Source of the DNA: Haliotis asinina | Taxonomy: Eukaryota; Mollusca; Gastropoda; Lepetellida; Haliotidae | Direction of reading: 5' to 3' | Length of the DNA: 64,000 nucleotides | Assembly (NCBI RefSeq): GCF_037392515.1 | Contig: NC_090291.1 | Span: 29,870,001 to 29,934,000, forward strand | Shown: one piece after another, positions 317-56,749 of the stretch | Layout of the letters: each line of letters opens with the position of its first letter | Position numbering within the stretch: position 1 is the first letter of the stretch | Made by a program: the position numbers and the translations under genes | Notes under the pieces: generated by a model | What the model was told of the DNA's origin: nothing | Seen by the model: the letters and a program-made list of their open reading frames with translations, nothing else | The model's database searches: none

Positions 317-3300
317 GGAGACAACACTACCCATGCTATGGAGTCGGCTGAGCTGGGAGAATCTGCACCCGCATCTGATGGTCAGCTGCAATCTTCATCA
401 GAAGAGGAGGGCAAAAAGAAGCCCAGCAAGGTCAAAGAGGGGTAAGTCCAAGTGTCATTTACCAACAGAACAAACAAATTGTCCATAAATAATCTTTGGC
501 CATTTTGTTTAAGGTACCACATTTTTCTTTGCACTGTTGTCCCTTCAGTGTGCCAACGGCCTATGGTTTTCAGTTTGAATCCCATTTTGTCCTGCATATC
601 TTCAACACCATACTCATCTGGCACTGTATATTACCATCAAATCAGTATCAAAATGGTATATTCCATAGATAAACCGATCTCTGCTGAAAACATTAGAACT
701 GAAAGTGTAAAGAATCTTGTCTTGTGATGTTGACTTGCAAATTTGACATCTTTATTGACAGAGTTGTCTACTCTTGTTCATTCATCTGATGCCATTTAAA
801 TGTATCCCTTGAAAAAAGTTTGATGAAAGTAGAAACCTGTAGATGAGCAGAAATTCTTCTACAGACTGCCTTTTTTTTGGGTAGTGTAGTTTGAAGGTCA
901 GTCTGGTCTTTTGTCCACATGTAACTTAGACGCCATTCAAATGTCATTAAACCAAACTCAGCGATAATCATTCAGAACTACTTCAAATTACAACTGAGTG
1001 CTTGAAAGACTTTGGGAAACATTTTCATTAAAGCAGGATGTTTGACTTGGAGATGAAATCATTCATATGTTCCACCTGAGACTCGTGTTTGAAACTGCAC
1101 AAGGGTAAATGGTGTGGTGGCCCCTTCAGTGATACACCTGGAAAGGTTTTATAGTGGGCACTTGTGTGCATTATATCTATGTTCAACCTAGGAGAAAAAT
1201 GAATAAAACCTGTGAGTCAAGTGCTAGATTCTGTTGACAAATGCAGTCAGTATGTGATGTTTCTGTTTACACTTTGTGTTATTGTCTCCACAGGTTAAAG
1301 AAGTGTCTAGCTCCATTCACCAACTTCTTCAAGCAGGTGACTGGAGCAACATACAATGCCACTGTTGACGTCTACGCTCCCATGTTCTGCTGTGACTTTA
1401 TCACATTCATCATTGTTGTGTTTGGGTACTGGGCCTTCGGACCAGCTGTAAGTACTGGAACACAGTTGTTGCCCCTACATGCAGTAGTAATATGTTTCAA
1501 ATTGTTATTCTTGGCTTTGTTGATAATTTATCTTTGTGTTCAGGTATTTGCCAGTGTGAAAAGAAAGAGTCTGTCTCTCAAGATAGAACTGTGGCTAAAT
1601 CATACTATCTTTGTTTTCCAGCAAACAGCCAGTGGTGACGTGACAAGCTACATCTCTGAAAATAGGGTAAGTCAGGAGAGTGCAGTCATGGTACATGTTA
1701 CAAGAATATGAGGGACAGTCTCAAAAGTATTTTGTCATTTACATGGTTTGTGAAGACGTGTACAGATAAGTGCTCACAGGTATGAATATGAGTTGACTAG
1801 TGTAAGTATGGTTGCCCTGGTTTACAGGTTCCTGTTCCTTTCTTGGTGATGCTGATCTGCCAGTTTGCTCTTATCATCATCGACCGTGCTCTGTTCCTGC
1901 GGAAGAACGTCCTCGGCAAGTTTGTGTTCCAGATCATCTTGGTGATCCTCATCCACATCTGGATGTTCTTCGTACTTCCGGCTGTCACTGATAGGTCAGT
2001 TCTGGTCATTTGACATGTCATAATGGGAGATAACCCAGAGTACTTTTCCTGTTTTAATGTATTTAATTATTGTTAGTCATCTTTCAGTATATTTTCAGCT
2101 AATAAACATAACATGTGTTCCAAAACATAATGCATTCTTCTTTACAAAACACATTACATATGTCCACTTTGGAAGAATTTTTTAACTACTCCTATGTCTA
2201 ATGGGCAGTGGGGTAACCTCGTGGTTAAGGTGTTCAATACTGATGCTGAACACCTGTGTTCGATTCCACACATGGTTACAGTGTGTGAACCCATTTCTGG
2301 TGTCTCCACCATGATTTTGCTCTAATATTGATAAAACTGGAATAAAACAGAAGCCATTCTTAGGTCTAGCCCGAGGAACATTTTCAGGAATTGGTTTTAT
2401 AGAAGTCCATTGGTTTTTCTGCCTTCCAGGAGTTTCAACAAAAACATCCCAGCTCTGCTGTGGTACTTTGTCAAGTGTATCTACTTTGGGCTGTCAGCAT
2501 ACCAGATCAGGTGTGGCTACCCAACGAGAATCCTTGGCAACTTCCTGACCAAGAAGTACAACTATCTTAACCTGTTCCTATTCAAGGGGTACGTCCATCT
2601 TATTGGTATACATATTGGTATAACCTATGATAGATGAAACACTTCTAGAAGTCAAAACCAGAATGTGTAAGGTTTCAAACACATTACACATGTATACTGA
2701 AAGTAACATTTGCTACTGATATGGATTGTAGTTCAGAGGTAGGTAATTGTGATTTGATCACTCTGTTTGTCCTGTCAGAATAGTTTTCCACAAAGTCATG
2801 GTTTAATATGTATTGTTACCCTAGCTGGTTTTCAAGACTCAATGGAAAGAAGGTTTGCTGAAATTTTTCTAAGGCCGGAAAAGCTGCTTGTGTCAGTCCA
2901 CTATGTATCATCGTCTGTCTTGGGAATGGAGAAAGAAATGTTGGCTTTGTTCCAGATTCCTGGCTATTCCGTTCCTGCTGGAGTTGAGAGCCCTGATGGA
3001 CTGGATCTGGACAGACACCACGCTGGCCATCGGCTCCTGGCTACAAATGGAAGACATCTATGCCAATATTTTCGTCCTCAAGTGCTGGAGGAGAGCAGAG
3101 GCGGTAGGTACATCTGCTCACTTCAACATGGACAGGTTCTTTCTGTTTGGCATGTTTTCCAAAGGGCGCTATAATTCTCTTGAAAAGTGATGAAAACAGA
3201 GGTAGCCTAGTGGTTAAAACATTTGCTTATCACTCCCAAGAACCCAGGTTCAATTCCCCCCACATGGGTACAAAGTGTGAATCCCATTTTTGGTGTCGTC

Positions 3301-6300
3301 TGCCATGCTACTGTAGGAATATTGATACTGTAGGAATATTGTGGCTATAACCACACTCACTCTGATTAGAGTATTACTTAATCTGTAGTTTTTTGAAGTT
3401 GCATTATATTGATATGAAACTGATCTGTCATGTTAAAATTCTTGTGTGTCAGGACATTTGACTGACCACAGATATTCAACTATATGAAGTCATCATTTGC
3501 ATTATGTATATGTTCGGAAAAAAACACTGATCTGTGTCAGTATCCCAATTCTCTGTGACTCCCTGTTGTAGACATACCCAACCCCACGTGCCATGAAGAG
3601 GAAGGCTCTCATCAAGTATGGCGTGGGCGGCCTGCTGCTTCTTGTCATCATCTTCATCATCTGGTTCCCGCTTGTACTCTTCTCCTTCGCTAACACCGTA
3701 TTCGAGCAGAACCCACCCTTCGAGTCCACCGTCACCATTACCCTTGGAGGGTACCAGCCAATCTTCAAGATGACAGCCCAGCAGCAGAACATCGAACATC
3801 TGACTTCCTCACAGTACAACATCCTACAGAGTCGATACAGCAAAGACAGGGTAGGTATCAAGTATGATTTTATGGAAATCGCAGTAGCCATGATGGGATA
3901 GCAGCTGAAATACTTATAATGCTGTGACTATGCATAATGAGATGATAAGACATGATAACATATTTCTCCCTCATTCAGTCTCTCACTCTCTTTGTCACTC
4001 TCTGCACCTCTACCTCTCTCTTTCTTCCTCTCTACCTGTCTATCTCTGTCTCTGTCCACTTTTCTACCTCTGTCTCTTTCTACCTCTCTTCTCTGCCTCT
4101 ACCGCTGTCTGTCTACCTCTCTCTCTGTTTCTGTCTACCGCTGCAATTATGACTTGGTACATATCTTGTTCCCAGAATGCCATGGGCTTCCTGTCCAACT
4201 ACGAGGCCATTGATGTAACCAAGGTTACACTACAAGGCAAGTCCACATCGCTGTGGGGCATTAGTCCCCCAAGTCAGGACGACCTCGTCACATCTCTGCA
4301 GAATAACAGAAACATGAAGCTGGAGTTCTTCATAAGCTTTGTCAGGTGAGACTTTTACTGTCTTCCATGGATAATTGTAAAATGTTCATATCAATAGAAT
4401 GCCATTGTTGAGGGATAGCTTCATGAATTCATCATTTCTTTGGACCCATCTTATTCAGATAACCAGACATATTGTCAAGTAATGTAATGAACACATCGTG
4501 CATGTTTTCATCCCTTGTTTTGGTGGCTTCTGCAGGGACCCGTCTGGAGGCCAATCAGGCAGTATCAGCAACGACTTCACTATGTTGCTGGACGATCCCA
4601 CCAAGAAGCAGCTAATAGGTATCATCAATGGGACATCCAATTCTACAGTGTAAGTTTTCCTGGCTTTGTGCTTTTACCGTTTCTGTGTATTCCAAATATG
4701 AGTCACAGCAGTGTAAGCTTTGTGGATTTTTAAAAATACAAACGGTTTTATGGTAAATTTGTTACGAATGGATATTGTGACGAATCTGTCTGAAACGTTG
4801 CAGATCTTCTCCATTTGTTCTCAAGAAAATGTTTTTCAACCTGCAGGAATATATTCGGTGTTTTCCCGAGATTTATGCGTCTGGCATTGGATGGGCGACC
4901 AACAGGCATCAAACCATTGCTATATGGTAGGTATTTCAATCAAGACATTCCAGTGATCAACAGCACTGGTATCATCATCGCATTTGGAAACTGATGACAT
5001 ATTTACACCAAGTCAGTGAGTCTGACCAACTGATCCCGGGAGTCGCTTCTTACAACAAGTATGAATTGCTGAAGATCATTTCTAACGCGGATTTTCACGG
5101 GTGTCTAGGAGTTACGGGCTTACGCAAACTTCATGTAGACATAAACATCTTTTCAGCTACTCTTAGAGCCAGAAGTTGACAGTGTCATTTACAAATATAT
5201 TAGGGATAGATATGGACCTGTATTACATCCCATGCAGACTTTAAGAACTCATCCTATTAGAATCAGTTGTCGGTAAAGAGAAGCAACTGCTTGTTAATAA
5301 TACCATACTAGGGGATAATATGTTTGGTCGCATACAAAGAGCTGTGTTAGACTTCCTCATTCAAAATGGGAAGTACGACATAATTGACCTGAACATAAAG
5401 ATAATAGTTTGGTAAGTTTTGGACCATACAGGCCTTTTCAGGTTCAAGGTCGCACTAAAACCTTACCTACCCACTTACCTACATACAAATTTTCTTTCCT
5501 TTATAGGTGATTTTGGTGTTGGCATGAGCAACATATCGATGGGTTTGTTTCGGGACTCCAACGCTGGTCCATTGTCCGAGTACATCCAGTGGTGGCAGAT
5601 CAAGGAGCTTATCAAGGGGAATGATATACTCGAATACGACCCAAATAAAAAGGCCCATGAAGTGGAGGAACTCACCATTTTCACCTTCAATGACAGGAAA
5701 GCACCTGCAGGATTCTCGGTTATCACAGGATATGGGTAAGTCATTTTACTGATTTTATTCTTTAACATGAATCGTTATGTGTAAAGGTATTCTGGTTATA
5801 ATTTTGACATTGTTTAATTATATAAATTTCATATTCAAATATAGATTCTAGTTTATAGCAAACAGATTGCAATGGTTTTATGAATGTATTGTTTCTTGAT
5901 CACTGCCTTAATTTGTGAAAGTCACATGAAATAGTTGTTGAAGCTTTTGATATGACCCTGTTTTAATGTTGTGTAGTTAGTGTGTTAACCCCATCACTTC
6001 GTAATTGCTGTCATCTTGCAAGAATGATTTGTGTTTGCCTTTGATGCGTGTCAGATGATTAGTACAAAACTTGCTGCAAATGAGATTTCACTTTTGAGTC
6101 ATTTCTATTAAATTCTAAGATATTTGTTTTGATATACATCATGATATACATTTTCAATCATGTGTTATAATCAACTGTGCAGCTTTTGTCTTGGAATCCT
6201 GTTAACTCATTTGGAGAAGTGCAAGAGAATATCTTAACTGCAGCAGGTTTATGGGTGTTTAAGATAAAGCTGTGACATCAAGAGTGTTCTACCAGGACAT

Positions 6301-9300
6301 TTGTTCGCATAGTAATTATTTAGTCAACACTGACACACTATTTCATATTTAAAATTTAAAAGTTTCCCTTAATATGTTTAATCTAATGTTTATCGAAAAA
6401 TTCAAGACAAATGATCTTTGTTTCAAGAATTTGCCCTTATTCCATGGTTTTGCTAACATATTAAAAGAACAGCCTGTCTGAATATCAACAGGACCCCAGT
6501 TCATTATTGATTTTGAAGTTTTGAGATATAACAAAGGAGTAGAAACTAGACAGAGATATTATAGAGACTTTGTCATGTTCCTGTGTAGAATCTCGGGGTG
6601 TTCTTGTCAGCATGGCATGACCTGCATGATGCATGGAGTGATACTCTACCATTCCACTTGGGGGATATAAATATCTATATCCTTCTTTGGGATATAAATT
6701 GTTCTATCCTTGCTAAAGCATCTAGCAGCCTAGTAACTAATATTTTAGCTTCACTAGCAGGATGTGTTTTGTATGCAGTAGTAGTCGTTGCAGTAGTAGT
6801 AGTTGTTGCAGTAGTAGTAGTTCTAGCAGCAGTAGTAGTAGTAATTGTAGCAGTAGTAAAAGTTGTTCACATGTTTGCCTGAAATGCTTAGCTGTTCAAG
6901 GCACATATGTTCTATGATTGACTTGTCTGATGATAGTGATGTATGTGTAATACGGATATTGTTATATCTGACAATGTAATGTTGTAATAGTACGTGTTGT
7001 AAACTGTGATAAACAGATGTTGTCAATGAAGATGAAATGTGTACATATTTTCAATGATGTGCAAGCTCTCAACATCCCAACTTGATCTTTGTCTCAGAGG
7101 AAATTCATGCTTGAAGCAGAATCCATATATACCATCACAAGCACAGTATGTGTTACATGTTGTTTCATGGGCATTTAATGGAAGATAACAGAAGACACAG
7201 TACACTCATTTATATGTAATAACTAGCTGATAGAACTGTTATAGCAACATTTCAGTATAGATCTCAACTCACTAGCAAGAAACACTAGCTTGATATACCA
7301 TATTTGATGGATCAAAATATGCTTACTTCTACTGGTGTTTCGACCTTGACAGGATCAAGTTGGGAGCTGATGTTGATGCATGATGTGTGCAGTCATTCAT
7401 CTGTCAGTGACATGTCTGAGGTGAAGTCTTGGTGTGGATAACATTGTTTCTGTCTGAATTTATTATGACGATTCTACCACCTAAAACTTTATACTGCAAC
7501 GGTTCTTTGACTATAACTCGTACTTTTAACAACAGTACGAGTTTATCAGAGATTCCATTTAGGGAATCAAAGCAGAATCAGTGTCCAGTTCAAGATGAAG
7601 TGATTGTAGCACTACACCTATCATGTTATTTACCACATGATAGTGCTGGTTTTTGGACAGGGTTCCTGATTGTATTTAGTTGGTTACCTACACATACATT
7701 CACCTCAGTCATGTCTGATATTGAATTCTGTTGGGATGAAAATCGGTACATTGAGAAGCCAAGGACTCCTCATAATGTGTTTCCTTGATTAAACGCCAAA
7801 CATTGAATGACCACTGGGATCTCAATTATTCACTGGGTATTGAATAAATGCTTGAGTCTCAATTAAACATGGGTATGGGATAAACACTGGGACCTTAGTT
7901 AAACACTGGGAATTGAATAAACTCTGTGGTCTCAATTAAAGTTGGGTATTGAATAAATGTTTGGGTTTGAGTGAAACACTGGGTAGTTTTTATGAAAACT
8001 GAGTCTGATAGAAATATATCTTTTGCCATTCAATCGATGAAATACAACAGTTTGCAAGCATCAAACTGTATGCTAAAAGAACTGTCTTATTAATCACGTC
8101 TGAGGCCTCTCAGTGTACTTATCTGAAACATTTGAAGATTTTTGTAAGATCACTACAGATTGTATAACAATGTGTTGTGCAATGTTGCTGTTTTGGCAGG
8201 ACTTTGCATTGTGGAGCATGAATCTGTGTTGTGGGTGCTAACCAAACCAGCTAAGAAGTGTGACTACTCACAATACTATTGTCAGCCATGACGACCATTC
8301 ATCACAAGGACTGGTATTGTCAGAGTAGTGCAGTAACATGTCTGATGATTCAAAACCAATTCCAAACGTAGTATTTCATGATTTGACCTGTTGATGTTAT
8401 AATAACCTGAACCAATCAAAAGACATATCAACTTTTATTCATCCTACTCATGGCACCAACAGGTATAATGACCTGGTATATAAATATGTAAATTAAGTTG
8501 TAGAAGAGACTGACTTGTTGCTGCACTAATGACTATTCATGATAAATTCATAATTCATCAACTACCAATTGATGAGCTTGGAGAAAAGATCTGATATCTT
8601 TTAAAATACTATGACAGAATGTGTCCTTGACTGGTACAAAAACACTTTCAAATAAATCCCATGCTATTGTCTTTCTGACATGCTGAGCTTCTTCTGAAAG
8701 CCTGATTCTGTGCATCATGGCTCTGTGCAGCTCATCTGCTTGTTTCTGGCCCCTTTTCTGCTCATGCCGTATAAGCTTTGTGCTGAGGCTTTGTGAGACA
8801 GCATTGACTGGTATACATTATCATGAAATTCAAATCTGGACATTTCCCATCTAAATCTCTATTGATTCACCTGAATCTTATCTATAAACTATCGTCAGTG
8901 AAATTCTTCATTCACCTTCTGTATGCTTGATTAACACTTTCTGTTTCAACCCCCTACACATACATACTTCATTTACACTTTCTGTATCAAAACCCTGCAA
9001 ATTACAATGCATTGTTGATTGACACATTCTTTGTTAGTGTATGTCCAACACGTTGTTAAGATTGAATTCATGCCTTCTTAACCAGCACTTTGTCAAGATT
9101 TAACACATCTACTTTTAACTTATCATTGCAACACCTGCACGCCTACACTTTCATACAATTGTTCAGGTATGCCTAGTTAACACTTTATAGTCAAGATTTA
9201 GCACATGCCTAGTAAAGACTTATAGTCAAGATTTAGCAATTTAGCACATACCTGCTTAGCACTTAATAGTCAAGAATTATCACATGCATATTAAACACTT

Positions 9301-9748
9301 TATAGTCAAGATTTAACACATGCCTAGTAAACACTTTATAGTCAAAATTTAACACATGCCTGCCTAACTAACCCACTGATTACGGTTCATCACAACCTAA
9401 TTAACACTATACCCCATCCCATTGTACATCCCACCAGTTGTATTCCCTTCTCTTCAAACCCTTCACCCCCTGGTCTGTTATTTCAGTATAATCGGTCTCT
9501 ATGTGTCGTTCATCCTGTTGATCGGCCGTATCCTGCGTCTGAGCACCACAGGCTTGTACCAGAGCATCATGTTCCTGCACTACCCGTACGTGGATCGGGT
9601 GCTGCAGCTGTGCCTTAACATCTACCTGGTTCGCGAGATGAAAGAGTTCGTGCTGGAGGAGGATCTGTTTGCCAAACTGCTCTTCTTCTACCGCTCGCCG
9701 GAGACCGCCGTCAAGTGGACGCGCAAGCCTAACAAGAAAGATGATTAG
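317..9748 (+). CDS. PIEZO: PIEZO mechanosensitive cation channel, 3' part (common exons plus terminal exon A)
   Basis: PIEZO forms a trimeric, stretch-gated cation channel of the plasma membrane. The 5' exons lie outside the window. Common exons by splice sites and phase: 317-441, 1294-1447, 1622-1666, 1828-1994, 2430-2588, 2956-3103, 3572-3850, 4176-4345, 4536-4649, 4847-4926, 5507-5735. With terminal exon 9487-9748 the CDS here is 1932 nt (643 aa plus stop). Order of parts: an acidic/lysine linker (317-441); last blade helices with FGYWAFG and IIIDRALFLRK; the anchor region (RCGYPTRILGNF, MDWIWTDTT) in 2430-3103; the outer pore helix (GVGGLLLLVIIFIIWFPL) and start of the extracellular cap in 3572-3850; the cap to 5735; then inner helix and C-terminal domain in the terminal exon. 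These motifs match vertebrate PIEZO1/2 closely in order and spacing. The first exon listed is the least certain, as its acceptor (TTTTTAAAG) is weak. A second usable terminal exon lies at 11207-11462. Confidence 0.95.
2203..2349 (+). repeat. tRNA-headed SINE-like repeat A
   Basis: The head has ACCTCGTGGTTAAG (A-box-like) and GTTCGATTCC (B-box-like), followed by the family body ACCCATTTCTGGTGTC. It lies in a PIEZO intron. Confidence 0.75.
3198..3365 (+). repeat. tRNA-headed SINE-like repeat A
   Basis: It shows GTAGCCTAGTGGTTAAAACA, GGTTCAATTCC and the ACACTCACTCT tail. A short internal duplication (ATACTGTAGGAATATTG) is present. It lies in a PIEZO intron. Confidence 0.8.
3970..4143 (+). repeat. 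polypyrimidine (CTCT/CTGT) tract in PIEZO intron
   Basis: This is about 175 bases of nearly pure C/T, mostly CTCTCT, CTGTCT and TACCTCT units. It ends some 30 bases before the acceptor of exon 4176-4345. It acts as an oversized pyrimidine tract and produces spurious open frames. Confidence 0.85.
4950..5107 (+). repeat. dispersed repeat B, old partial copy
   Basis: It shows GTGATCAACAGCA, CCAAGTCAGTGAGTCTGACC, GATCCCGGGAGTCGC and TTTTCACGGGT. It lies in a PIEZO intron. Confidence 0.75.
6772..6865 (+). repeat. imperfect GTA/GTT trinucleotide repeat
   Basis: This is a run of GTA units with GTTGCA interruptions inside the 3.75 kb PIEZO intron 5736-9486. The open frame across it (poly-Val) is a by-product. 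Confidence 0.85.
7826..7985 (+). repeat. minisatellite 1 in PIEZO intron, ~36-37 bp unit
   Basis: There are about four to five degenerate copies of a unit built around CTCAATTAAACACTGGGTAT and TGAATAAA. It lies in the intron before terminal exon A. Confidence 0.75.
9165..9362 (+). repeat. minisatellite 2 in PIEZO intron, ~36 bp unit
   Basis: There are about five copies of a unit containing CACATGCCTAGTAAACAC and TTTATAGTCAAGATTTA. It ends some 125 bases before the exon A acceptor. The stretch 8880-9165 holds weaker, older-looking versions of the same words (AACACTTT, CAAGATT). Confidence 0.75.
9487..9748 (+). CDS. PIEZO: PIEZO terminal exon A: inner helix and C-terminal domain, variant A
   Basis: This exon follows a TTATTTCAG acceptor. 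Its first base completes the GG left by exon 5507-5735 and gives G-I-I-G-L-Y-V-S, the start of the pore-lining inner helix. It runs through VDRVLQLCLNIYLVRE, LEEDLFAKLL and YRSPETAVKW to a TAG at 9746-9748, ending in KPNKKDD. Length and landmarks match a full PIEZO C-terminus. The sequence reads SIMFLHYPYVDR where mouse PIEZO1 has SIMFEELPCVDR, so the glutamate pair after MF is replaced by Leu-His. No stop or frameshift interrupts the exon, and its third codon positions are GC-rich like the other exons. An AATAAA at 10557-10562 could end transcripts that use it. Confidence 0.93.
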
Positions 9749-11206
9749 GGGAATTAAAGTATCAACAATTGTTGTGAACTTCTGTTTCAGATGAATCAAT
9801 TTTAAAAGACAATATTATTTGTATGAGGAGAATATATTGTATTTTCTTAAATTGGAATCCTGAATACATTATCTGACTGAAATTTGATTTTATTTATGAT
9901 AAATTGCAATAATTTACACCAGGATGTCATTACAGACTGATTTTAATTGATGTTGAGAATATGCTTCATCATATTTGAATTCAAGAGAATTTACTCTGAT
10001 GATAAGATGCATCAATTAAATACAGAAAATACGTTTCTGATATACACATATACTGTATCCATTTATAGTTGAATATATTTTCTAGCATAACTAGCACTAT
10101 GATTCTGCAATAATGTTGGCATAACTAAGATAACCGAATAATGTGTGTGCGCTATAGTTAACAGAATATACCATGCTTGTCCATTACATCTCCCTATTCT
10201 GTTCTGGAGTGTATTGTCTGTCTTCTCTCATGGGCTTAAAGCTTGTGCGAGATTAAATATGTTCTGATCTCAGACTGTGACCTCAGTATTAAATGAGATC
10301 ACATGCTGTTGTGGATATCGTGATTCATAGTACAAACCAGATACGCTTCCAAATATACTATGTTTTAGAAATACATGACAATTGTTCTGTCTGAATTCTG
10401 TTAACACTGACAGCTTTCCAGTAAACTGATACCGATGTAACATTGTATTTTGATCATGTAAGCATGTAACAATATTTTCATGAAAGCAAAGACATATATT
10501 AAGGTTGTACCTGGTTAGGTGTTGTGAATCGGGTTTCCTCATGTATCCCAATACTCAATAAAGTTGTGACGACAACTGTTTATTTTCTTAGCAGTCACTG
10601 CATACATGTTGTATTGTACATACATGTATTTACTCTGTTGTCAGTTGTACAGTTTCTTACCTTTTTACATACTGCAACATGTAACATCTGTGTCAAAGCT
10701 GATGAAACTACCCTGGTACAACTGTGATATTATCAAACCTTACATCATAGAAGTGACTGAATGTTAAAATTTGCAAAAATATCAGCATATTGTTAAGGCA
10801 TACCAGATTTTGAAAGTATTGGAGTTGAATTGACAGTCTATGAAAATTAAGGGGAGATAATTCACATTTTACCAGGTATACAATTTCATCAGTTTGAATT
10901 CTCCAAGAGGGTAAATGATTTGATAAATGGTTGTCAAGTAGATAGTTTTTCAAGGTGTTTGTTTGGTCCGATTGGTTTGTTTATGTTTATTTCAGGGTAA
11001 GTATGGCATTTGTAAAACGTGGGTTGATAAATATGCCTGTATTATGTGAAACTTCTATACACGATATGGAGCTGATATGGCATTGCTTCACTTGCTCATT
11101 GTACACGATAGTAAGATAACTATGTTGTTGGAGGCACAGGTGAGTAGTTTCTCTGCAACTCAAACCACAGTCTGTTCTAACGATGATCTTGTTCTTTTCC
11201 TTACAG
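9749..11206 (+). other. exon A 3' UTR and spacer before exon B
   Basis: This non-coding stretch contains the candidate poly(A) signal at 10557. No other gene was seen. The last ~40 bases before 11207 supply the branch/pyrimidine region of the exon B acceptor. Confidence 0.7.
10557..10562 (+). terminator. candidate poly(A) signal for PIEZO exon A transcripts
   Basis: This is an AATAAA about 810 bases after the exon A stop and 645 bases before exon B, followed by a GT-rich stretch. Use of this site would make exon A a true last exon and leave exon B to transcripts that skip A. Confidence 0.5.
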
Positions 11207-11462
11207 CATCATTGGTCTGTATGTGTCATTGGTGTTAGTCATTGGCCGCTTTTTTAGAGTGACATTTTTCACGGGGTCGTCATACCGCATCATGTTCGAG
11301 GAGCTTCCAGATGTGGACAATGTCCTTCACCTATGTCTCGACATCTACATGGTGCGAGAGAGTCGGGACTTTCGCCTCGAAGAGGATCTCTTCTCTAAGC
11401 TTCTGTTCTTGTACCGCTCCCCTGAGACGCTCATCAAGTGGACGAAGCGGAAGGTTGATTAA
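11207..11462 (+). CDS. PIEZO: PIEZO terminal exon B: inner helix and C-terminal domain, variant B
   Basis: This exon follows a pyrimidine-rich TTTTCCTTACAG acceptor. Its first base also completes GG to Gly, giving G-I-I-G-L-Y-V-S. It keeps RIMFEELPDVDN (the MFEELP motif of vertebrate PIEZO), LCLDIYMVRE, LEEDLFSKLL and YRSPETLIKWT, and stops with TAA at 11460-11462. Joined to exon 5507-5735 the CDS is 1926 nt (641 aa plus stop). By eye it is about 55-60% identical to exon A in protein, with the most divergence in the lower half of the inner helix (RVTFFTGSSY against RLSTTGLYQ). It is open, in phase and not decayed, so it looks like a duplicated, mutually exclusive last exon and not a dead copy. 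The first AATAAA after it is at 13446-13451. Confidence 0.92.
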
Positions 11463-14400
11463 GATTGAGGGTTGTGTAATACATGCGTGTCGTCTCCACT
11501 CTTGTTCAGGAAAATATTTTTTTAAATTTCATAAAATTAGCTTGCAACTTCCTGTAATTTTTTTTAGTGTAAAGGTTCTGTTTCAAGTTTGTAAAAATAA
11601 TGTGGACTTTAGAGAGATTCAGTTGTCAGTTGTAATGAAATTTGAATCATGTTACATCATGACATAAAATCACAAAAGACAATTTTGGATTTAAACCTTT
11701 TTTGAATTTATAGCTTCCCTTTTGATATAATCCAAGATATGAAGAAACACTCATGAAATTATTGTCAGTTATAGATCACTAGCTAATATGAATGTGTGAG
11801 AATTATTTCTCTACAGTAGGGAACATACGGAGACAGACACACATGATATCAATATGGTGCTTGTGTGTATTCTGTAGCATTTCATGGAGAAGTGTAAAGT
11901 GATGTGTTTAGAGCCTTGGCTGGAACACTAGGAAAAGGTTACAAGTCAGTGTTTATACTGACACAAGATGTATACAACTTTTGAAATATGTACATTTGGG
12001 GAAAAATGGCCTGCTTACAGTTTAAGTCAGTTTAACAAGCTATCTGTCACAGTCTCATTCCAATCAGATCTCTCTGTTTTATACATCACCTCTCTGCTTG
12101 AAGATCTGAAGATCATGTTGAAAATTGAGGGGGAACTTTGATTGTCGATTTATATAGTGATGTGTGGCTTTTTCAGCCATGTTTACCACTTCAGGTTTGT
12201 AATTTTGTTGTAGCAAAAATACTACTACACAGTTATGCCCTTGCTACTTTGGGGAGAGTAGCCTAGTGGTTAAAGCATTCACTCATCACACCAAAGATCT
12301 GGGTTCAATTCCCCACATTGGTATAATGTGTGAAGCCCATTTCTGGTGTCACCAGGTGTGATATTGTTGGAATATTGTTAAAAGCAGTGTAAAACCTAGT
12401 CACCCTTCATTTTGGATGTACATGTTATGGTGGTGAAAAAGGATAGTGCTGATCCATCATAACACAGTTTTAATTTTGGTATTTACAACTCACTGATTAT
12501 AGTCACCTCCAAGGTACAGAAATAAGATATGGATGCTTTACTCACTCATTCAGAGAATTTAGAAGCTCTGGTACAAAAAATATGTGTTTTTCAAGCTCAG
12601 TTGACAGTATCATGTATCTTCAGACAGACAGGTATTGTAAAAGTATGTATTGATCTGATTTGAATAAGATTTTGAACTAGGGTAGTGATGTTGTATACAT
12701 GCATTTATCACACAGTTTCAGTGGTATTTATCATCCTCATTTCATATTCTAGTCACATAATCATCATTTCATCATCCTTTGCATGCTGCACGTGTTGTGG
12801 AGGCTGTGCTGAAACTGTTGTTCAGTGTGATTATTGTCTACACGTCTCTCAGGGCTCAACTATATCACCCGTATTTTCACAGAGGGGAGAACATGTTGTG
12901 CTTAATATCTTTGCTTCCTCACAAATCTTTGTACATTTAAACTATCATTTAGACTTTCCAATGTCTTAAGAAGGCTATATAAATCCTAAATAATTTATCT
13001 CGCTATGCACAAACAGTGAATGTGACATGTATGAAATATGTCAATGATTATTTTCCATATTTTTTTTTATTGGGAAGTGATTGTGTATGTGCTATTGCTG
13101 TATATACAATGAATTTTAAATTCTGTTGTATGTATCAATAATTTTGAACTGTTTGATGTTAGAAATGTGTCCATGGTAACATATAGACAACAGGTCAGTG
13201 TGCTGAAAACAGTATTTTGTAGCAGTTGATATTGACGTGTTGAGTTGCATATAGCTACGTCGTGTGTTATCTATATACATGTATCCTTGTGTGACAGTCA
13301 GTTATCAATGGCATTGCTAAATATTTATTCCACCCCAAGTGCTTCATACAGTTATACAGTACATAAAACAAAGTGCAAAATTGACTATTCAACACATTGG
13401 ATGAACACAGGATATGAACATCCTAAATATTCATCCCAGTAAAGGAATAAAGTAGTGATTCAACTTAAGCAATATACAAACCCTTTACTATTTTATGCCT
13501 ACAGCTTGCGGAGCTTATTACTTCAATAACATACCCCTATTAACAAGCTAGATACATTTGTATAACGTATTACTCGTGACACCTGAGCATTTTTAAGCAT
13601 CAGGTGATTAAATATCATATCATTATTATATTAATTATTATCACCTCAGGGTATTGAGATCAATGTATACATGCTTTGCTTTTAAATTCAGTAGTAATTC
13701 TGAAAACTATTCATAGTGCTTTTCATAAGCTTGCTAGAACATACATTACCCAGAATGCATCTGGTTATGACAGCTACCAGTAGTTAATAGGGTGGTGCTT
13801 TGGTCTAAAGGATTTTGTCACTTGTGTGCGTCTACATATTTAAAGTCACATTTGTTGAGAAGCATGACATGAACAGCTTATTTTGTCATACCGATACTGC
13901 TATTATGAAGAATACAAACATATGGATAACAACTTCTTGTTTACAGCATGGGATGGCATTTAAACATAGAATGTGGAAAATGCTTTTGTATGATAACAAT
14001 GTACACGGAAACAACACTATGCAAATGGCATGAAGTTGTTATCCATTAAATTGTATGCTTCATGACTTCCTTACCAAATTCTAGACGATCAAACAATTGA
14101 TGCTGCTTTGTTTTATATTTAGGGACAAACGCCTTGTTTTCTAAACTAAGTGCTTTACTGTTTTGTGGGGGAGAATGGGTTGAGGTCATTGTTAAATGTC
14201 ATTTAAATATTTCATGTGTTGTTAAATTCTAAACATGATCAAAACCATACTGTTATAATAAAACTAATTTAGGGCAATATGATCAAAACCGAATTCATTT
14301 CTTTGATTAAAAAAATTTGATTCTACTCAGTAATGCATGAGGTGGGAAGAACCAGTAATACACAGACTGTTCTAGTGAAGGTATGGGCATTGTTCTGTGA

Positions 14401-42162: not shown

Positions 42163-42334
42163 ACATACATACGCCAACTAGTGTAACCATATGACACTCA
42201 TTATATGTTTAATTTTATCTGTTTCAGATTAAAAACCCTTGACCTGCAGTGTCAATGACGTTATTGCCGATACAGGTTAGGACTTACTGACCTTCACCTA
42301 CAACTTCCTCGCCAAAAGTCGTCACCCCTTCACC

Positions 42335-43450
42335 ATGCCAGTGTTTGTTAATGACGACTACCTGTTGTTCGAGGCTGTGAAATGGGGCAAGCGAGACAAG
42401 GTCCGCGGGCTGTTGTCGTCGGGATGTCACCGTAACCTCCGGGACGATGGAGGCAGGACGGCTGTTCACTGGGCGGCTGAGAGGGACTATCTGGACGTTC
42501 TGTATCTCCTCATTGACGAGAAGTGGGATCTCAACACTGCAGACGCAAAGCAGCAGACGCCTCTGCTGATAGCTTGTAATTACAGGCGGGAGAATGTGGC
42601 GTCTTGTCTGATAACGCTAGGCTGTGACGTTAACGCCGCAGACATTTCATTCAACACTCCACTTCACCGCGCTGTTCGAAAGGATATCGAGACCGTTGCT
42701 GCAATGTTGTGTAAATTTGGGGCGGAGGTTGATAGTAAAAATGGGGCATGGTGGACGCCGTTACACGAGGCTGCTAGAACAGGAAACGAGACGATCGTAA
42801 AGATGTTGTTAGAACGGGGCGCTAACGTCAACGCTACCACAAAGAAAGGTTCTACGCCGTTTCTTACGTCTATATTCTATTACAAAATTGCTCAAAAGAA
42901 TACTTACACTAGTCTGGACAGCATATTAAAGATGTTTGTCGACTCCCGATGTAGACTTAGCCAAAGTGACGGACAGTGGACGCCTCTCTCAGCGGCAATT
43001 TCCGTCGATAACAGTTTCATCGCCGCGTTGCTTATTTATGGCGGCTGTATGTTCGAAAAGCGTACTAAGTTTTCCCGTAGCCTCCTAGTGGAGGCGTTCA
43101 CCCGATGTGAACCCTTTGTGAGCAGACTGATGGTGATGGCGGGGTACCAGGTTAACCAGGAAGAAGTGGACATGTGTTCACGGAGAATCCCCGCATTCTC
43201 GAGGACATTCATGAGACTGGTTGAACCCAACACCGACATCAGAAGTGGGCGTTCTGACCTACTAAACTGGTTACGTGAACAAGCCAGAACGCCCAAAAGT
43301 CTCTCAGAGCTGAGTCGAGCTTCCATCAGACATTCCTTGAACTTAGGAGCAGACGACACTTCTATTCTGGACAACATATATCAGCTACCCCTACCAGAGT
43401 GTCTGAAAAACTTTCTAGCCATGTCAGACTTTATTTCAGGGATTTTATAA
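42335..43450 (+). CDS. ankyrin repeat and SOCS box protein (ASB-like), substrate receptor of a Cul5-type E3 ligase
   Basis: This is a single-exon CDS of 371 aa. ASB proteins bind a target through ankyrin repeats and recruit Elongin B/C and Cullin-5 through the SOCS box for ubiquitination. Visible ankyrin units begin near residues 8, 40 (GRTAVHWAAERDYLDVLYLL), 74 (QTPLLIACNYRRENVASCLI), 106 (NTPLHRAVRKDIETVAAML), 140 (WTPLHEAARTGNETIVKMLL), 172 and 214 (QWTPLSAAISVDNSFIAALL). The SOCS box is at about 319-362: BC-box SLSELSRASIRHSL, with Ser where many members have Cys, and a Cul5-box LPLP at 351-354. The start codon has a good context (CTTCACCATGCC). An AG after a TTATCTGTTTC pyrimidine stretch at 42218-42230 suggests a 5' UTR intron. 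It could be an ASB or another ankyrin-SOCS subfamily; the exact orthologue is not clear. Confidence 0.92.
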   Translation: MPVFVNDDYLLFEAVKWGKRDKVRGLLSSGCHRNLRDDGGRTAVHWAAERDYLDVLYLLIDEKWDLNTADAKQQTPLLIACNYRRENVASCLITLGCDVNAADISFNTPLHRAVRKDIETVAAMLCKFGAEVDSKNGAWWTPLHEAARTGNETIVKMLLERGANVNATTKKGSTPFLTSIFYYKIAQKNTYTSLDSILKMFVDSRCRLSQSDGQWTPLSAAISVDNSFIAALLIYGGCMFEKRTKFSRSLLVEAFTRCEPFVSRLMVMAGYQVNQEEVDMCSRRIPAFSRTFMRLVEPNTDIRSGRSDLLNWLREQARTPKSLSELSRASIRHSLNLGADDTSILDNIYQLPLPECLKNFLAMSDFISGIL

Positions 43451-51445: not shown

Positions 51446-51485
51446 TGACGTCACATCGGATGTGACGTGTTTACTTGTGACGTCA
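51446..51485. promoter_or_regulatory. cluster of CRE sites upstream of the TSSK4-like gene
   Basis: Two perfect TGACGTCA palindromes (51446-51453 and 51478-51485) flank a TGACGTG half-site (51463-51469). They lie 86-125 bases upstream of the start codon. In vertebrates the testis CREM activator drives haploid germ-cell genes through such sites, which fits a spermatid kinase. No TATA box is evident. Confidence 0.65.
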
Positions 51486-51499
51486 CAGTAATCTGCAAC

Positions 51500-51557
51500 A
51501 TGGCGACGGAGTAGACTGGCAGCAATCATGGGTTCTAGGAACCTGCTACTCCCATAA
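51500..51557 (+). promoter_or_regulatory. two short upstream ORFs in the TSSK4-like 5' leader
   Basis: ATG at 51500 opens a 4-codon frame ending at 51514; ATG at 51528 opens a 9-codon frame ending at 51557, 13 bases before the main ATG. The first also lies in AACATGGCGAC, which resembles a YY1 initiator-type site. If the leader starts at or before this point, both would affect translation; if transcription starts at the YY1-like site, the first may be absent. Confidence 0.45.
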
Positions 51558-51570
51558 TCTAGCACGAATT

Positions 51571-54500
51571 ATGTCTGGAGCTGGCGGCCCTGCCCAAGAC
51601 AACAGCTCGGCCAAGCGAGGGGAAAGTCGCTCGAGCCGCCGGTTCCAGATTCTTGAAGCACAAGGACTTATTGTCGGCAAAACACTGGGAAATGGCTCGT
51701 ACGCATGTGTGAAATCCGCCTACGACGTAAACAAGAAATCTAAGGTCGCCATTAAAATCATTTCCAAAAGAAAGGCACCCGAGGACTATCTCACGAAGTT
51801 TCTTCCGCGGGAGATTGAAGTCGTACGGATATTACGTCACCCGAATCTGATCAAGTTTCATCAAGTGATTGAAACAACAACACGGTTTTTCCTCATTATG
51901 GAAATCTCAGAAAATGGCGATCTTCTAGAACACATCCGTAAGCGGAGGGTGATTGAGGAGAAACTGGCAGGGAGGTGGATGAGGAACCTTCTGGACGGGA
52001 TCTGTTACATGCACAGCAAGGGGATTGTCCACAGGGATCTGAAGTGTGAGAATTTGTTGGTTGATAACAACTTGGAGCTCAAGGTTACAGATTTTGGTTT
52101 CGCCAAAAGGCTGTTCCGGACCAAAGGGAATGAAGTTGTTCTGAGTGAGACGTACTGTGGAAGCTATGCTTATGCACCGCCTGAGATCCTTAAAGGCGTC
52201 CCATACAACCCTTATTGTGCCGAGGTCTGGAGTATCGGGGTCGTTCTTTTCACGATGGTAATACACATGACGCGGGTCTCATTAGACTACATGGTAGGGT
52301 TATATGGTTTAGAATATCATTCTTTTTGGGACAAGAGTGATTACTGTCGCCACAGTAAATCAGGGAGACCATATACTGATTATTCTTGAGTGAATCGAGG
52401 CAGGTTGCACTACACATACATTTTAAATACTGGGTGGTGCTTGTGATTTAGGTCAAGTTGTCTTTCATCATTGCCACCTAATTCTTTTCTACTGTTTTCA
52501 GCAGCTTGTATTTTTCGGACTATTTATCTTTAAGTTTTGCCCCATTTTACCGGTAAACATGCTTTTCTGGATATGCTAATACCCATCCCACTGAAGGCCC
52601 AGTTAGAATGTGGGTTATTTTCATATAAATATGCACTTTGCATGTGTGTAAAGTTTAGGGATACAGAGTAAAAGCCTAAACTTTTTTTTCTATTTTCGAC
52701 AGCACTAGTTATTTACTAAACAGTTACTTTGCTTCTGTTTTCATAATGTGTACTAGGGCTGCACAGTATAAGTCTTTCCAAATGATTGGCAATGGGTCTT
52801 CTTTAAAGCTGTCAAATAGCAAAGTAGGACATCATTAAAACTGAACGACCTAATGATTAAAATCAACATTTATCATAAAACTTTTCAAATGTACTTCTTT
52901 GTCTACCTACTTTACTTTTCAAAAAGCTGTGTCCACCCCAGATTTGGATTAGACCTAAAAATTCTAAATGGTGCATGACATGTAGTAGTAATAATGTTTC
53001 ACAAGGTGATATTTTCCTTGATAAATGTAGGCTTCTATCTTATTATAAGGCTTTATTTCTCATATTCCAATGTTTTTTCATTATTCTATTCAGTCCAAAG
53101 AAAGTGCAGCTTTCCTAATACAGAGTGACCTTTGCTGATCTTGAGTGTTTTGTTAAATCATTTCTTTGAGAAAGTGTTCCAAACTTCATTCATGAAATAG
53201 GTCATATTAATACTACTTTTATTCAAAGACATAGGTGCATAAATCATTAAAATGTGCACATCAGGATTATGACACATGATTGTGACATCAATTAAATGTT
53301 TCTTGAGAAATACAGATGTGCATAGTTGCTCTGACTGTTTAAATTATCAGAAATTCCTTAGCTGTTAAAAAAAGTTAAAGTGTATACATAGTACGGGTGG
53401 GTTGATGGAGGATAAGGTGTCTGCAAGTTTTAGTTGACTTTGTCATATATATGACATGAGAGATCATACAATTATCTGTGTTAATTTTCCTTTGGAAAGA
53501 AGTTACCTTTAAAAGAAAGCCTTGTTGACATTTTTTTCACAGTAAGGTGTTAAGCTGGAATTTGTTTAAAGGACTTGTGACATACAAAATCGACTAGCCT
53601 GGAGGACCGGTTAAACTTTTTAGTGAGTGTCGATCTCTGCAAGAGTTTTTAAATAAAAATGTAAACAGAAGAAGGCTGTTTTTTCCTTATTTCATTTTGA
53701 AAGAAGCTATGCAATGCACATTGGTTACTCACATTTCCTGTGATTCAATTTGAAGATGAAAAAAATGTAATGAAGTGGAAAGATCTCAACACAATATATC
53801 GCAGTACCTATAGCAATACAGGAGAGTGTATCCCAATATATCACAATACAAAATTTGGGGCAATTCACAGCCCTAGTGTTTACAACTTTTCTCTGACTTG
53901 CAACAGAAACCAAATCCATTTGAACTGAGTGTGGTCTTGTTATTTACCAAACCACTTTCTTGTTTACATTTTCCCAAGTGTTTTAAACCTTTTTTGATCT
54001 TCACCAGGTTTATGGTAGATTGCCATTTGATGACTCGGATCACAAGAAACTACTGCGACAGGTACAGGCAAAGGTTATTTTCCCCTCCAAGCCAGAAGTG
54101 TCTGAAAACTGTCGCATCCTCATACTAAAGATGCTGACCAAGCCTAGTGACCGGATACCTATAGCTAATATCAGGTAAACAACTTCCACATACTTTGGAT
54201 CACCTGTCACTCTGATAATGTAAATTGTAATTGTTGATGCCATACATATGCACTGTTGCCGGGACATATATGTACTTGTTGACCTTTGAAAATTTTATAA
54301 ACCCAAGGAAAGTGCAGGTTATGCATAGAAAAGATTGAAAGCTAGCATTTCCAGTCTCAAAATCGTACATTGTATCATTACAGTTTTGAGTTGTATGGAC
54401 CAAGGGTTCCTTTCACAATAAGGTTAAACATAACTTCCATTCTTAAACTTTGCACTGAGGTTACCTTAGTGACTTTACGATCACCTTAGTGCTTTGTGAA

Positions 54501-56749
54501 AGGAGGCCCAGACATCTGTGGTGACTCAGTGTCTTCTTTGTATAGGAATTACACTAGGACGTGGCCATCACAAGAGTTAATGTGACTGAATCACTAAGGG
54601 TGTAGGATTTGGCTCAGAATGAACCACTGTAGCCTTGACATATTGCAAGAGGGTGGAGAGTTCAATGGTATGAATTCAGAATCATATACATAAACAGACA
54701 GGGATGGCAACAGGAAAATTGTTTTTTAGCTGAAAACCTAATTGTGTGTCATTGAATGCAGGTTCAGATGATTTGAAACAAAATTGGCAGAAATCTGTGG
54801 ATCCACAGAAAATTGCCATCCCTGAACATATTGCATATCTGGTGTGCAGTCTTACGAGGGTTGGCTGAAAAGTTCTCAGCCTGAGTGGTTTTTCCCCACC
54901 AGGTAGAGACAGGTGTTTGCCACCAATGAGGACAATCATTTAGTGAATCATAGACACAAGAACTACAAACGTACTAATAGTTTTATCTCAACTACAGCTC
55001 TTTTGGTAAACCTACCCTCTGAAATCATCAGAAATGGACAAAACTGAATACAGGGCAGTCATCAAGTACTTGCAAAAGAAAGGGATGTCCCCAACACAGA
55101 TACATGCTGACATGGTCTCCACTCTAGGGGATGATGCTCCTTCATTTTCCACAGTAAAGAAGTGGGCTGCAGAATTTAAGCGTGGCAGACAAAGCCTTGA
55201 TGATGACCCACGCTCAGGAAGGCCTTCAACAGCAACCACTCCAGAAAACATCACACGAGTGCTCAATATGTTGATGGATGATCGACGATTGACTACTCGA
55301 CATATTGCTAGTGTAGTGGGCATCTCTCATGAGAGGGTTGAGCATATTATCACCAACGAATTAGGAATGACTAAAGTTTCTGCAAGATGGGTGCCAAAGC
55401 TCTTGACAGCAGAACAGAAACGTGTCAGGTTCCAGACGTCCCTTGACAATTTGCGTCGTTTTGAAGCAGATCCCGATGATTTTGTGGCACGATTTGTAAC
55501 CATGGATGAGACCTGGATACAACCAGAAACAAAACTACAGTCAAAACGGTGGAAGCATCCTGATTCACCAGCTCCGAAGAAAGCCAAGTCTGTTCCTTCA
55601 GCTGGAAAGGTGATGGCATCAGTCTTTTGGGATTCCAGGGGTATTCTGCTCATTGATTATCTTGAAAAAGGTCAAACTATCAACGGCAGATACTATGCTG
55701 ATCTACTGAACCAGTTGCGAGAAGCAATCAAAGCCAAACGACGAGGGATGATCGCTAAAGGTGTCCTCTTCCCCCAAGACAATGCGCCTGTTCACAAATT
55801 GGTGGTGGCCATGTCAACAATCCGCGATTGTGGCTTTGAACTCATTGACCATCCTCCTTATTCACATGATTTGGCTCCTTCTGACTTCCACCTGTTCCCC
55901 AAAATGAAAAAGGAACTCGCCGGTCGCCATTTTGCAAGTAATGATGACGTCATTTCCGCTGTGACTGATTTTTTTAGGGTAGCTGAAGATTTCTTCCTGA
56001 CCGGGATTCGGGCCTTGCAGCATCGCTGGCAAAAGTGTGTGAACTTGGAAGGGGACTATGTAGAAAAATAAATTACAAACATGGACTTTGTAACTTTTTT
56101 TCCCACAGTGAGGCTTAGAACTTTTCAGCCAACCCTCGTAACTTCTGTTCAGTTATCATCTGTATTATCACATCCAAACCCTCTGGAAGTGTGGGACAAG
56201 TTCATGCTTGTAGGTTTCATAATGTTTTGGCACAAGATTTGATGGATAATTTTGTAACACTTTATTACTACTCGAGTTGTGAATTTTCCCTGTGGACAAT
56301 TTGTGTTACCATACGTGGATGTCATCTTGGTAGCAGATAGTCTTATGGACTAGTGAAAATACAAACTAAATACTCACCCTGTTTAGGTTTAATTACTTAT
56401 ATGGATAGTTTCATGGATTATTTCAATGTTCAGGTTTGATACATGGTACAAAACCCTGTGTGTACTTCCGGATGAACCTAGGACAACACCAACCAAGGAT
56501 AACCAGAGTCTGCCGTCTGCCCCACAAGTGCCAGATCTGGAGTCAGAAGGCTCCACTGCAGCAACTACAGACATCAAGGAGGAACCAAGGCCCCGAAGCC
56601 CTGTGGTGAACACATTGGTTGACATACCACCAGATGAAGCTGATGATACAGTGGCCAAGGTCAAGGCACTGGGTCAGATGTTGTCTCAAGAACAGAAGAC
56701 TGGAGTTCAGAGTCCTGGCTGGACAATCAGTGATGAGAGTGTCACTTAA
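51571..56749 (+). CDS. TSSK: testis-specific serine/threonine kinase, TSSK4-like
   Basis: TSSK enzymes phosphorylate sperm proteins during late spermatogenesis. Coding exons are 51571-52257, 54008-54174 and 56434-56749: 1170 nt, 389 aa. Visible motifs: glycine loop LGNGSYACV (39-47), catalytic Lys in VAIKII (K62), FLPREI of the TSSK family (77-82), HRDLKCEN (154-161), DFGFAKR (174-180), activation segment LSETYCGSYAYAPPEIL (191-207), then LPFDDSDHKKLL in exon 2. The TYCGSYAYAPPEIL run is closer to TSSK4 than TSSK1/2. Oddity: the conserved Asp of subdomain IX (DxWSxG) is Glu here (AEVWSIG, E218). The last exon encodes a ~100 aa Pro/Glu/Ser-rich tail ending ISDESVT. Intron 2 carries a mariner. 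AATAAA at 57097-57102 fits a ~350 nt 3' UTR. Confidence 0.94.
52258..54007 (+). other. TSSK4-like intron 1
   Basis: This 1.75 kb AT-rich intron has a GTAATA donor and a TTCACCAG acceptor. No element or exon was recognised inside. Confidence 0.8.
54397..54511. mobile_element. foldback MITE of the 'TTTCACAAAG' type
   Basis: The ends are CCTTTCACAATAAGG and CCTTAGTGCTTTGTGAAAGG, with paired inner blocks. It lies in intron 2 of the TSSK4-like gene. Confidence 0.6.
54855..56138 (+). mobile_element. mariner DNA transposon (DD34D), complete
   Basis: This is a 1284 bp element inside intron 2 of the TSSK4-like gene, same strand. Terminal inverted repeats of ~30 bp start CGAGGGTTGGCTGAAAAGTT at the left; the right end is the near-complement. 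A TA duplication flanks it (54853-54854 and 56139-56140), the standard mariner target. The transposase ORF lies inside. The two ends differ at only a few positions, so the copy looks young. Confidence 0.93.
55034..56071 (+). CDS. mariner transposase, 345 aa, apparently intact
   Basis: The enzyme cuts and pastes the mariner by binding the terminal repeats in the nucleus. The N-terminal half carries the paired helix-turn-helix DNA-binding region with the GRPS motif (62-65). The catalytic triad is D158 (TMDETW), D249 (FPQDNAPVH) and D284 (APSDFHLF), with exactly 34 residues between the last two, which defines DD34D mariner. The usual WVPHEL is WVPKLL (119-124) and YSPDLAP is YSHDLAP (276-282). 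The length equals typical mariner transposases (about 345 aa), with no internal stop or frameshift. Whether the two motif changes lower activity cannot be read from sequence alone. Confidence 0.95.
   Translation: MDKTEYRAVIKYLQKKGMSPTQIHADMVSTLGDDAPSFSTVKKWAAEFKRGRQSLDDDPRSGRPSTATTPENITRVLNMLMDDRRLTTRHIASVVGISHERVEHIITNELGMTKVSARWVPKLLTAEQKRVRFQTSLDNLRRFEADPDDFVARFVTMDETWIQPETKLQSKRWKHPDSPAPKKAKSVPSAGKVMASVFWDSRGILLIDYLEKGQTINGRYYADLLNQLREAIKAKRRGMIAKGVLFPQDNAPVHKLVVAMSTIRDCGFELIDHPPYSHDLAPSDFHLFPKMKKELAGRHFASNDDVISAVTDFFRVAEDFFLTGIRALQHRWQKCVNLEGDYVEK

Follow-up and report, generated by a model that had tools for sequence, protein, structure and literature searches.

Introduction

A striking constancy of PIEZO channels in both copy number and sequence was noted in PMC11526382, where invertebrates are credited with one gene each, and two piezo genes were reported in leeches (PMC7992859). 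According to PMC12490864, the alternative splicing of PIEZO genes was explored by only two studies, both mammalian, and the mammalian studies concerned the lateral-plug region of Piezo1, exon 30, and its counterpart in Piezo2, exon 33. Piezo1.1 is the form of mammalian Piezo1 that lacks exon 30 (Geng et al. 2020, via PMC12490864 and a PDB title), and mammalian Piezo2 is spliced in a cell-type-specific manner (Szczot et al. 2017, via PMC12490864 and PMC10531961). Here, we analyze the PIEZO gene in a 64,000-nucleotide stretch of the genome of the abalone Haliotis asinina, a vetigastropod (contig NC_090291.1, positions 29,870,001 to 29,934,000), referred to below as the window. The gene very probably ends in two alternative last exons, A and B, which stem from an old tandem duplication, the choice between them giving the channel either tail A or tail B.

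Piezo1.1 is similar to the abalone case in that the splicing of a PIEZO alters permeation and sensitivity, and in that mixed channels were proposed for it. However, it results from the skipping of a 24-residue cassette exon in the intracellular lateral plug, whereas in the abalone the choice of the last exon swaps the inner helix and the whole C-terminal domain. The splicing of mammalian Piezo2 likewise tunes kinetics, but the regions described as altered by it are intracellular or peripheral, and not the pore-lining module. Among ion channels in general, mutually exclusive internal exons are comparable, as tandem exon duplication made segments interchangeable. Those exons are internal and are followed by shared exons, whereas the abalone copies are terminal, each with a stop and probably a 3' end of its own. 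As a class, alternative last exons have a common donor, two terminal exons and a polyadenylation signal between them; the abalone gene shares the donor and the two terminal exons, and has a candidate signal between them. The C-termini that such exons encode are often unrelated, whereas the abalone ends are homologous copies of one pore module. We found no description of alternative PIEZO last exons among the open-licence articles listed, which is not proof of their absence. The components, PIEZOs and alternative last exons, are ordinary; it is their combination, the exchange of the pore, that appears undescribed.

Two pore-module exons behind one PIEZO core

Eleven PIEZO exons, extending from the last blade region to the cap, occupy positions 317 to 5735 of the forward strand (Table 1), and the reading frame is open throughout. 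The 5' part of the gene lies upstream of the window, and the 5' limit of the exon 317-441 was set by the acceptor at 316. The spliced window protein matched solved PIEZO1 and PIEZO2 chains along residues 33-639, with E-values down to 5e-183. The core is identical to the Haliotis protein P0175 from residue 1760 on; residues 1 to 1,760 of the Haliotis PIEZO protein had no match in the window.

An earlier note, made from the DNA letters alone, had placed two exons (9487-9748 and 11207-11462) after position 5735, of equal phase and each with its own acceptor and stop, and the sequence confirms this. The donor past 5735 reads GG/gtaag (the slash marks the exon boundary), and the codon begun by GG at 5734-5735 is completed by A or by B. 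Exon A, 262 bases long, has the acceptor ttatttcag/T at 9487 and ends with TAG at 9746-9748, and exon B, 256 bases long, has the acceptor ttccttacag/C at 11207 and ends with TAA at 11460-11462. The in-window product is in frame in both cases, with 643 amino acids when exon A is used and 641 when exon B is used. Both tails matched the Pfam family Piezo_cap (4.9e-33 for A and 1.6e-40 for B), with matches reaching the profile end or one position short of it, and the PIEZO homology of the window gene (core, cap, inner helix and C-terminal domain) was confirmed with either tail. The proteins of A and B are identical in 50 of 81 positions (62%; tblastn E-value 4e-34), and thus their likeness is not due to chance. 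Both pore modules had been called undamaged, to which one qualification applies: exon A reads MFLHYP where vertebrate PIEZOs have MFEELP.

The exon A tail is identical to the end of P0175, and the A-spliced window protein as a whole is identical in 643 of 643 residues to this protein, which is public as "isoform X3" of Haliotis asinina. As an annotated Haliotis isoform, the A form is already listed in databases. No convincing third copy of the terminal exon was found in the window by tblastn with A, B or the whole spliced protein.

The two exons had been classified as mutually exclusive terminal exons. They do provide two alternative ends, but the strict class is a different one. Mutually exclusive exons are internal copies with a shared exon downstream; A and B end in stops, and the window contains no shared PIEZO exon after them. 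What we found is one donor followed by two terminal exons of equal phase with separate stops. As each exon has its own stop, no shared exon follows, and the AATAAA at 10557 lies between them, A and B are alternative last exons. Neither acceptor looks weak, judging by the polypyrimidine content (13/17 for A and 15/17 for B, with 10-14/17 for the ten core acceptors).

The pair would go back to an ancient tandem duplication of the exon that encodes the inner pore helix and the C-terminal domain. Transcription would then meet exon A before exon B. The joining of donor 5735 to 9487, with cleavage near the AATAAA at 10557, would yield a channel with tail A. If A is skipped, 5735 would be joined to 11207 and the RNA would end further downstream, where the first AATAAA is at 13446, yielding tail B of the canonical type. 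The choice may be regulated by cell type or tissue, and two channel types would result from one gene. PIEZO channels are trimers, and cells that use both last exons may combine A and B subunits in one channel.

The RBFOX-like motif TGCATG, one of six motifs examined upstream of A, occurs there 3 times versus 0.71 expected from mononucleotide shuffles; this count was reached by 4.8% of the shuffles, and we rejected the motif as too weak. A tandem repeat at 9169-9361 (period 36, 5.2 copies) ends about 125 bases upstream of the exon A acceptor, and a further array, with a period of about 37, is in the same intron at 7802-7985. The observed/expected ratio of CpG is 0.98 in exon A and 0.93 in exon B; three core exons have 0.54, and the intron preceding A has 0.21.

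Both tails on the same gene

If A and B belonged to different PIEZO genes, tandem copies or loci joined by misassembly, the choice between them would not be one of splicing. The occurrence of two piezo genes in some invertebrates, such as leeches (PMC7992859), speaks for this explanation, and the earlier note had itself named a misassembled separate locus as what could undo its claim. However, tblastn with the spliced protein revealed no second PIEZO core in the window, and the 1.46 kb between A and B are too short to hold another one. We consider this explanation largely refuted and scarcely credible, also in view of the data from other molluscs.

A search of other mollusc PIEZO loci for paired terminal exons, as the same note had proposed, found A before B in three gene models. 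In each of these, from Solemya velum, Mya arenaria and Octopus vulgaris, the predicted protein has tail A (shortened in the O. vulgaris model) with a B-type tail directly behind it. We rejected these proteins as proof of a double-tailed product and read them as gene-model artefacts in which the stop of A is skipped; yet they place A before B at one locus, and the recurrence of this order argues against separate genes.

Comparison of the cores points in the same direction. The core of the O. vulgaris A+B model is identical in 503 of 503 residues to that of the A-only isoform of the same species. The Mya A+B model and the A-only Mya isoform have 54 core residues and the A exon in common; their cores are 90% identical overall because the A+B model lacks some core exons, and the shared parts are nearly identical. 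In oysters, a 143-residue open reading frame (P0107), whose contig measures at most 1,450 bases and is probably a cDNA (complementary DNA), has a core directly joined to tail B. The named Magallana gigas protein P0105 ends in this very tail, and the 60 core residues of P0107 are found unchanged before tail A in Crassostrea gigas 'isoform X8' (P0178), so that in C. gigas an identical core precedes each of the two tails. The same 60-residue core was found in none of the three other oysters tested.

The tree of the cores (21 mollusc rows and 3 outgroups) contains groups of gastropods, octopus, oysters and veneroid-type clams, with Solemya joining gastropods and octopus at a low support of 0.54. 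The A-only and A+B cores of one species fall together in it, again contrary to what separate genes would predict. One orthologous gene with two tails would explain the core data better than separate genes. The claim of one gene with two pore-module ends is thereby borne out: in five mollusc species from three classes, the abalone of the window included, a single gene carries both tails, and public sequences that are probably spliced exist for each tail.

A-type tails across molluscs

The search with exon A provided 101 proteins and that with exon B 86, giving 171 different proteins in combination. The tail start was preceded by another residue in 99 of the 171, and this residue was S or R in 89 of the 99, as expected from an AG acceptor in the same phase in genomic DNA. 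Species with tail A were counted in a search with the full-length protein scored on tail A alone, of which the best 120 of 947 matches were listed. Among the matches listed, the A-type tail is on a PIEZO core in at least 19 named mollusc species, which include at least five gastropods (Haliotis, Littorina, Patella, Nucella and Plakobranchus), at least twelve bivalves (Solemya, Mya, Pinctada, two of Crassostrea, two of Mytilus, Ostrea, Saccostrea, Ylistrum, Ruditapes and Mactra) and at least two cephalopods (two species of Octopus). The remaining rows among these matches are nearly all from arthropods. The survey of molluscs covered gastropods, bivalves and octopus.

A further A-type tail is encoded by a 2,356-residue open reading frame on a 7,306-base contig (P0181), in which the core is joined to tail A without introns. 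Its core clusters with that of Mytilus edulis in the core tree, and we refer to it as mytilid-like. The contig resembles a cDNA and probably is one; like P0107, it comes from the read-archive or European Nucleotide Archive contigs. The earlier supposition that the arrangement may be new thus needs narrowing: it is not special to the abalone, as the A form is annotated and occurs in three classes, and what remains is that no description of it was found in the literature.

Two other possible cases of doubled tails were encountered. In the beetle gene model P0176 of Gonioctena quinquepunctata, a normal tail has another, divergent PIEZO-like tail behind it, which is perhaps that of a fused neighbouring gene. 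P0123 and P0124 are two different B-type tails whose longest contig is 6,538,892 in each case, so that they are probably on one contig and perhaps represent a second, separate duplication of the last exon.

Residue differences in the pore module

We compared individual sites in 19 A rows (18 named species and the mytilid-like row), 6 B rows and 6 outgroup tails. The A rows, which were freed of Mytilus coruscus and of redundant rows of the same species, were picked by likeness to Haliotis A and include several related oysters. The mouse numbering was anchored by L2475/V2476 and M2493/F2494 of PMC6349400.

The hydrophobicity of L2475/V2476 sets inactivation, and the MF constriction is a minor second gate (PMC6349400). 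The hydrophobic gate is present in both Haliotis tails, as LL in A and LV in B. Residue 2476 is L in 18/19 A rows and V in 6/6 B rows; since leucine is still hydrophobic, a loss of inactivation is not predicted from this position. Basic residues are also important for inactivation at 2479 and 2482 (PMC10531961), and all 19 A rows have retained them. In the vicinity, residue 2473 is F in 19/19 A rows and L or M in B, residue 2481 is L in 19/19 A rows and 0/6 B rows, residue 2484 is small or polar in 19/19 A rows and F in B, and residue 2485 is T in 17/19 A rows and F or V in B. M2493 of the constriction is present in 5/19 A rows and in 6/6 B rows.

The acids E2495/E2496, located at the inner pore mouth, were tied to calcium selectivity, unitary conductance and block (PMC7796548), and to ruthenium red sensitivity (PMC8042031). 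Residue 2495 is R, L, K or N in 19/19 A rows, an acid (E or D) being present in 0/19 A and 4/6 B rows, and E2496 is kept in 18/19 A and 6/6 B rows. In Haliotis, the pair is EE in B and LH in A, and both acids of MFEELP are gone from A. Further on, residue 2516 is M in 19/19 A rows and 0/6 B rows. Changes P2536G/E2537G lower the peak current and make deactivation faster (PMC6349400); P2536 is present in 6/6 B rows and in 8/19 A rows, being changed in the other 11. M2493, an acid at 2495 and P2536 are kept in 6/6 outgroup tails.

The clearest prediction from these differences concerns permeation and block. The two pores would differ in permeation, block or gating through the changes of V2476, F2484/F2485, M2493 and E2495 in A, and additionally through those of E2496 in Haliotis and of P2536 in 11/19 A rows. 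AlphaFold models of the lone tails had pLDDT (predicted local distance difference test) values of 78 and 77 and equal helix order. Foldseek matched the A model to three Piezo1 chains with a root-mean-square deviation of 9 to 10 and a TM-score (template modelling score) of about 0.55; given this poor superposition, the models are hardly informative on the pore.

By their nature, alternative last exons alter the 3' untranslated region. The switch might therefore serve mainly the 3' untranslated region or C-terminal partners and not the pore, and the C-terminal stretch in most bivalve A tails is indeed longer than in B. On the other hand, a switch of the untranslated region needs no second copy of the coding exon, and the constant differences between A and B are in the inner helix, the linker and the constriction, not merely at the end. 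We regard this explanation as improbable.

Age and constraint of the two exons

Between A and B of the window, the residue is kept in 50 of 80 aligned codons, and the fourfold-degenerate sites agree in 6 of 25. Silent sites of the pair are saturated while the protein has been held. The pair is therefore old, and constraint acts on both copies.

Exon A could nevertheless be a decaying relic of the duplication that is rarely spliced and whose product is non-functional or lowers PIEZO dosage. The loss of both MFEELP acids from Haliotis A would fit this, as would the mean identity to human PIEZO1, which is lower for A (57.5%) than for B (64.2%); the mean identities to the Drosophila protein are about equal (59.7% for A and 57.6% for B). 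However, the frame of A is open and its splice site intact in the window, and in all 19 A rows, from three classes, the frame is kept together with F2473, R2479, L2481, R2482, M2516 and E2537. The mean pairwise identity among the 19 A rows (71%) is as high as that among the 6 B rows (69%), with 54% between A and B. Saturated silent sites are not what a decaying copy would be expected to combine with a conserved protein, and A forms occur in annotated isoforms and in an intronless contig. A relic is thus very improbable. We lean towards A as the derived copy of the two.

A maximum-likelihood tree of 110 of the 126 tails (short and duplicate rows were dropped; midpoint root) placed the A rows in one clade with six further exons and no B or outgroup row. 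The support of this clade was 78 by the Shimodaira-Hasegawa-like approximate likelihood ratio test and 74 by ultrafast bootstrap. Exons with A-like features (P0008, P0150, P0151, P0156 and P0157) adjoin the molluscan A clade, and tail A may be older than molluscs.

Several observations weigh against two alternative last exons from an old duplication as we propose them. In the midpoint-rooted tail tree, the A clade and five exons beside it split off before all other tails, those of arthropods, vertebrates and type B included, and vertebrate and Gordionus tails are interspersed among the six B rows. As the A clade branches early and the B rows are mixed, this tree gives no indication that A emerged from B inside molluscs, nor does it fix in what order, or when with respect to the phyla, the duplication took place. 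The 86 residues of the tail may be too few for such a tree. Of the residues characteristic of A, F2473 and L2476 are also present in 2/6 outgroup tails and hence are not unique to it, and the acid at 2495 is also missing from 2/6 B rows. Finally, the Haliotis asinina 'isoform X3' is a database model, and the searches, which did not cover the other six members of the P0175 cluster, found no B-tailed Haliotis protein.

Possible significance

Should the choice of the last exon swap the pore end of PIEZO, and should this have been kept in three mollusc classes, it would be a different route to channel diversity. The two tails on one identical body, which differ at the gate and constriction residues singled out by mouse PIEZO1 mutagenesis, provide a natural experiment, and they are testable candidates for the tuning of touch, proprioception or the sensing of cell volume in shellfish and octopus. 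More tentatively, and rather as a conjecture than as an expectation, a pore cassette at the end of one gene, and not PIEZO gene duplication, might have diversified mollusc mechanosensation since the common ancestor of gastropods, bivalves and cephalopods. Mixed trimers with 0-3 A subunits might then set the number of acids in the E2495 ring in steps, and hence calcium permeability, block and gating.

Other features of the window

The features of the window are compiled in Table 1. No match at the gathering threshold of Rfam was found in the window.

Table 1. Positions of the PIEZO exons, candidate processing signals and other genes in the window.
Feature	Position	Strand	Basis
PIEZO core exons, first part	317-441, 1294-1447, 1622-1666, 1828-1994, 2430-2588, 2956-3103	+	in-frame assembly
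PIEZO core exons, second part	3572-3850, 4176-4345, 4536-4649, 4847-4926, 5507-5735	+	in-frame assembly
Shared 5' splice site, GG/gtaagt-type, phase 2	5736..5741	+	donor for either last exon
Terminal exon A, inner helix and C-terminal domain, variant type, stop TAG	9487..9748	+	Pfam Piezo_cap, P0175 end
ATTAAA near exon A	9753, 10015, 10252, 10288	+	motif only
AATAAA, candidate polyadenylation signal of the A form, about 0.8 kb past the A stop	10557..10562	+	motif only
Terminal exon B, inner helix and C-terminal domain, canonical type, stop TAA	11207..11462	+	Pfam Piezo_cap, B-type tails of other molluscs
AATAAA, first after exon B, candidate polyadenylation signal of the B form	13446..13451	+	motif only
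Single-exon open reading frame, 389 amino acids, ankyrin repeats and SOCS box, ASB-like gene	42281-43450	+	Pfam
Open reading frame, 302 amino acids, protein kinase domain; frame ends short of the kinase profile end	51481-52389	+	Pfam 9e-55
Mariner/Mos1-type transposase open reading frame, 353 amino acids, helix-turn-helix and DDE matches, looks intact	55010-56071	+	Pfam

The kinase reading frame at 51481-52389 may resemble testis-specific serine kinases.

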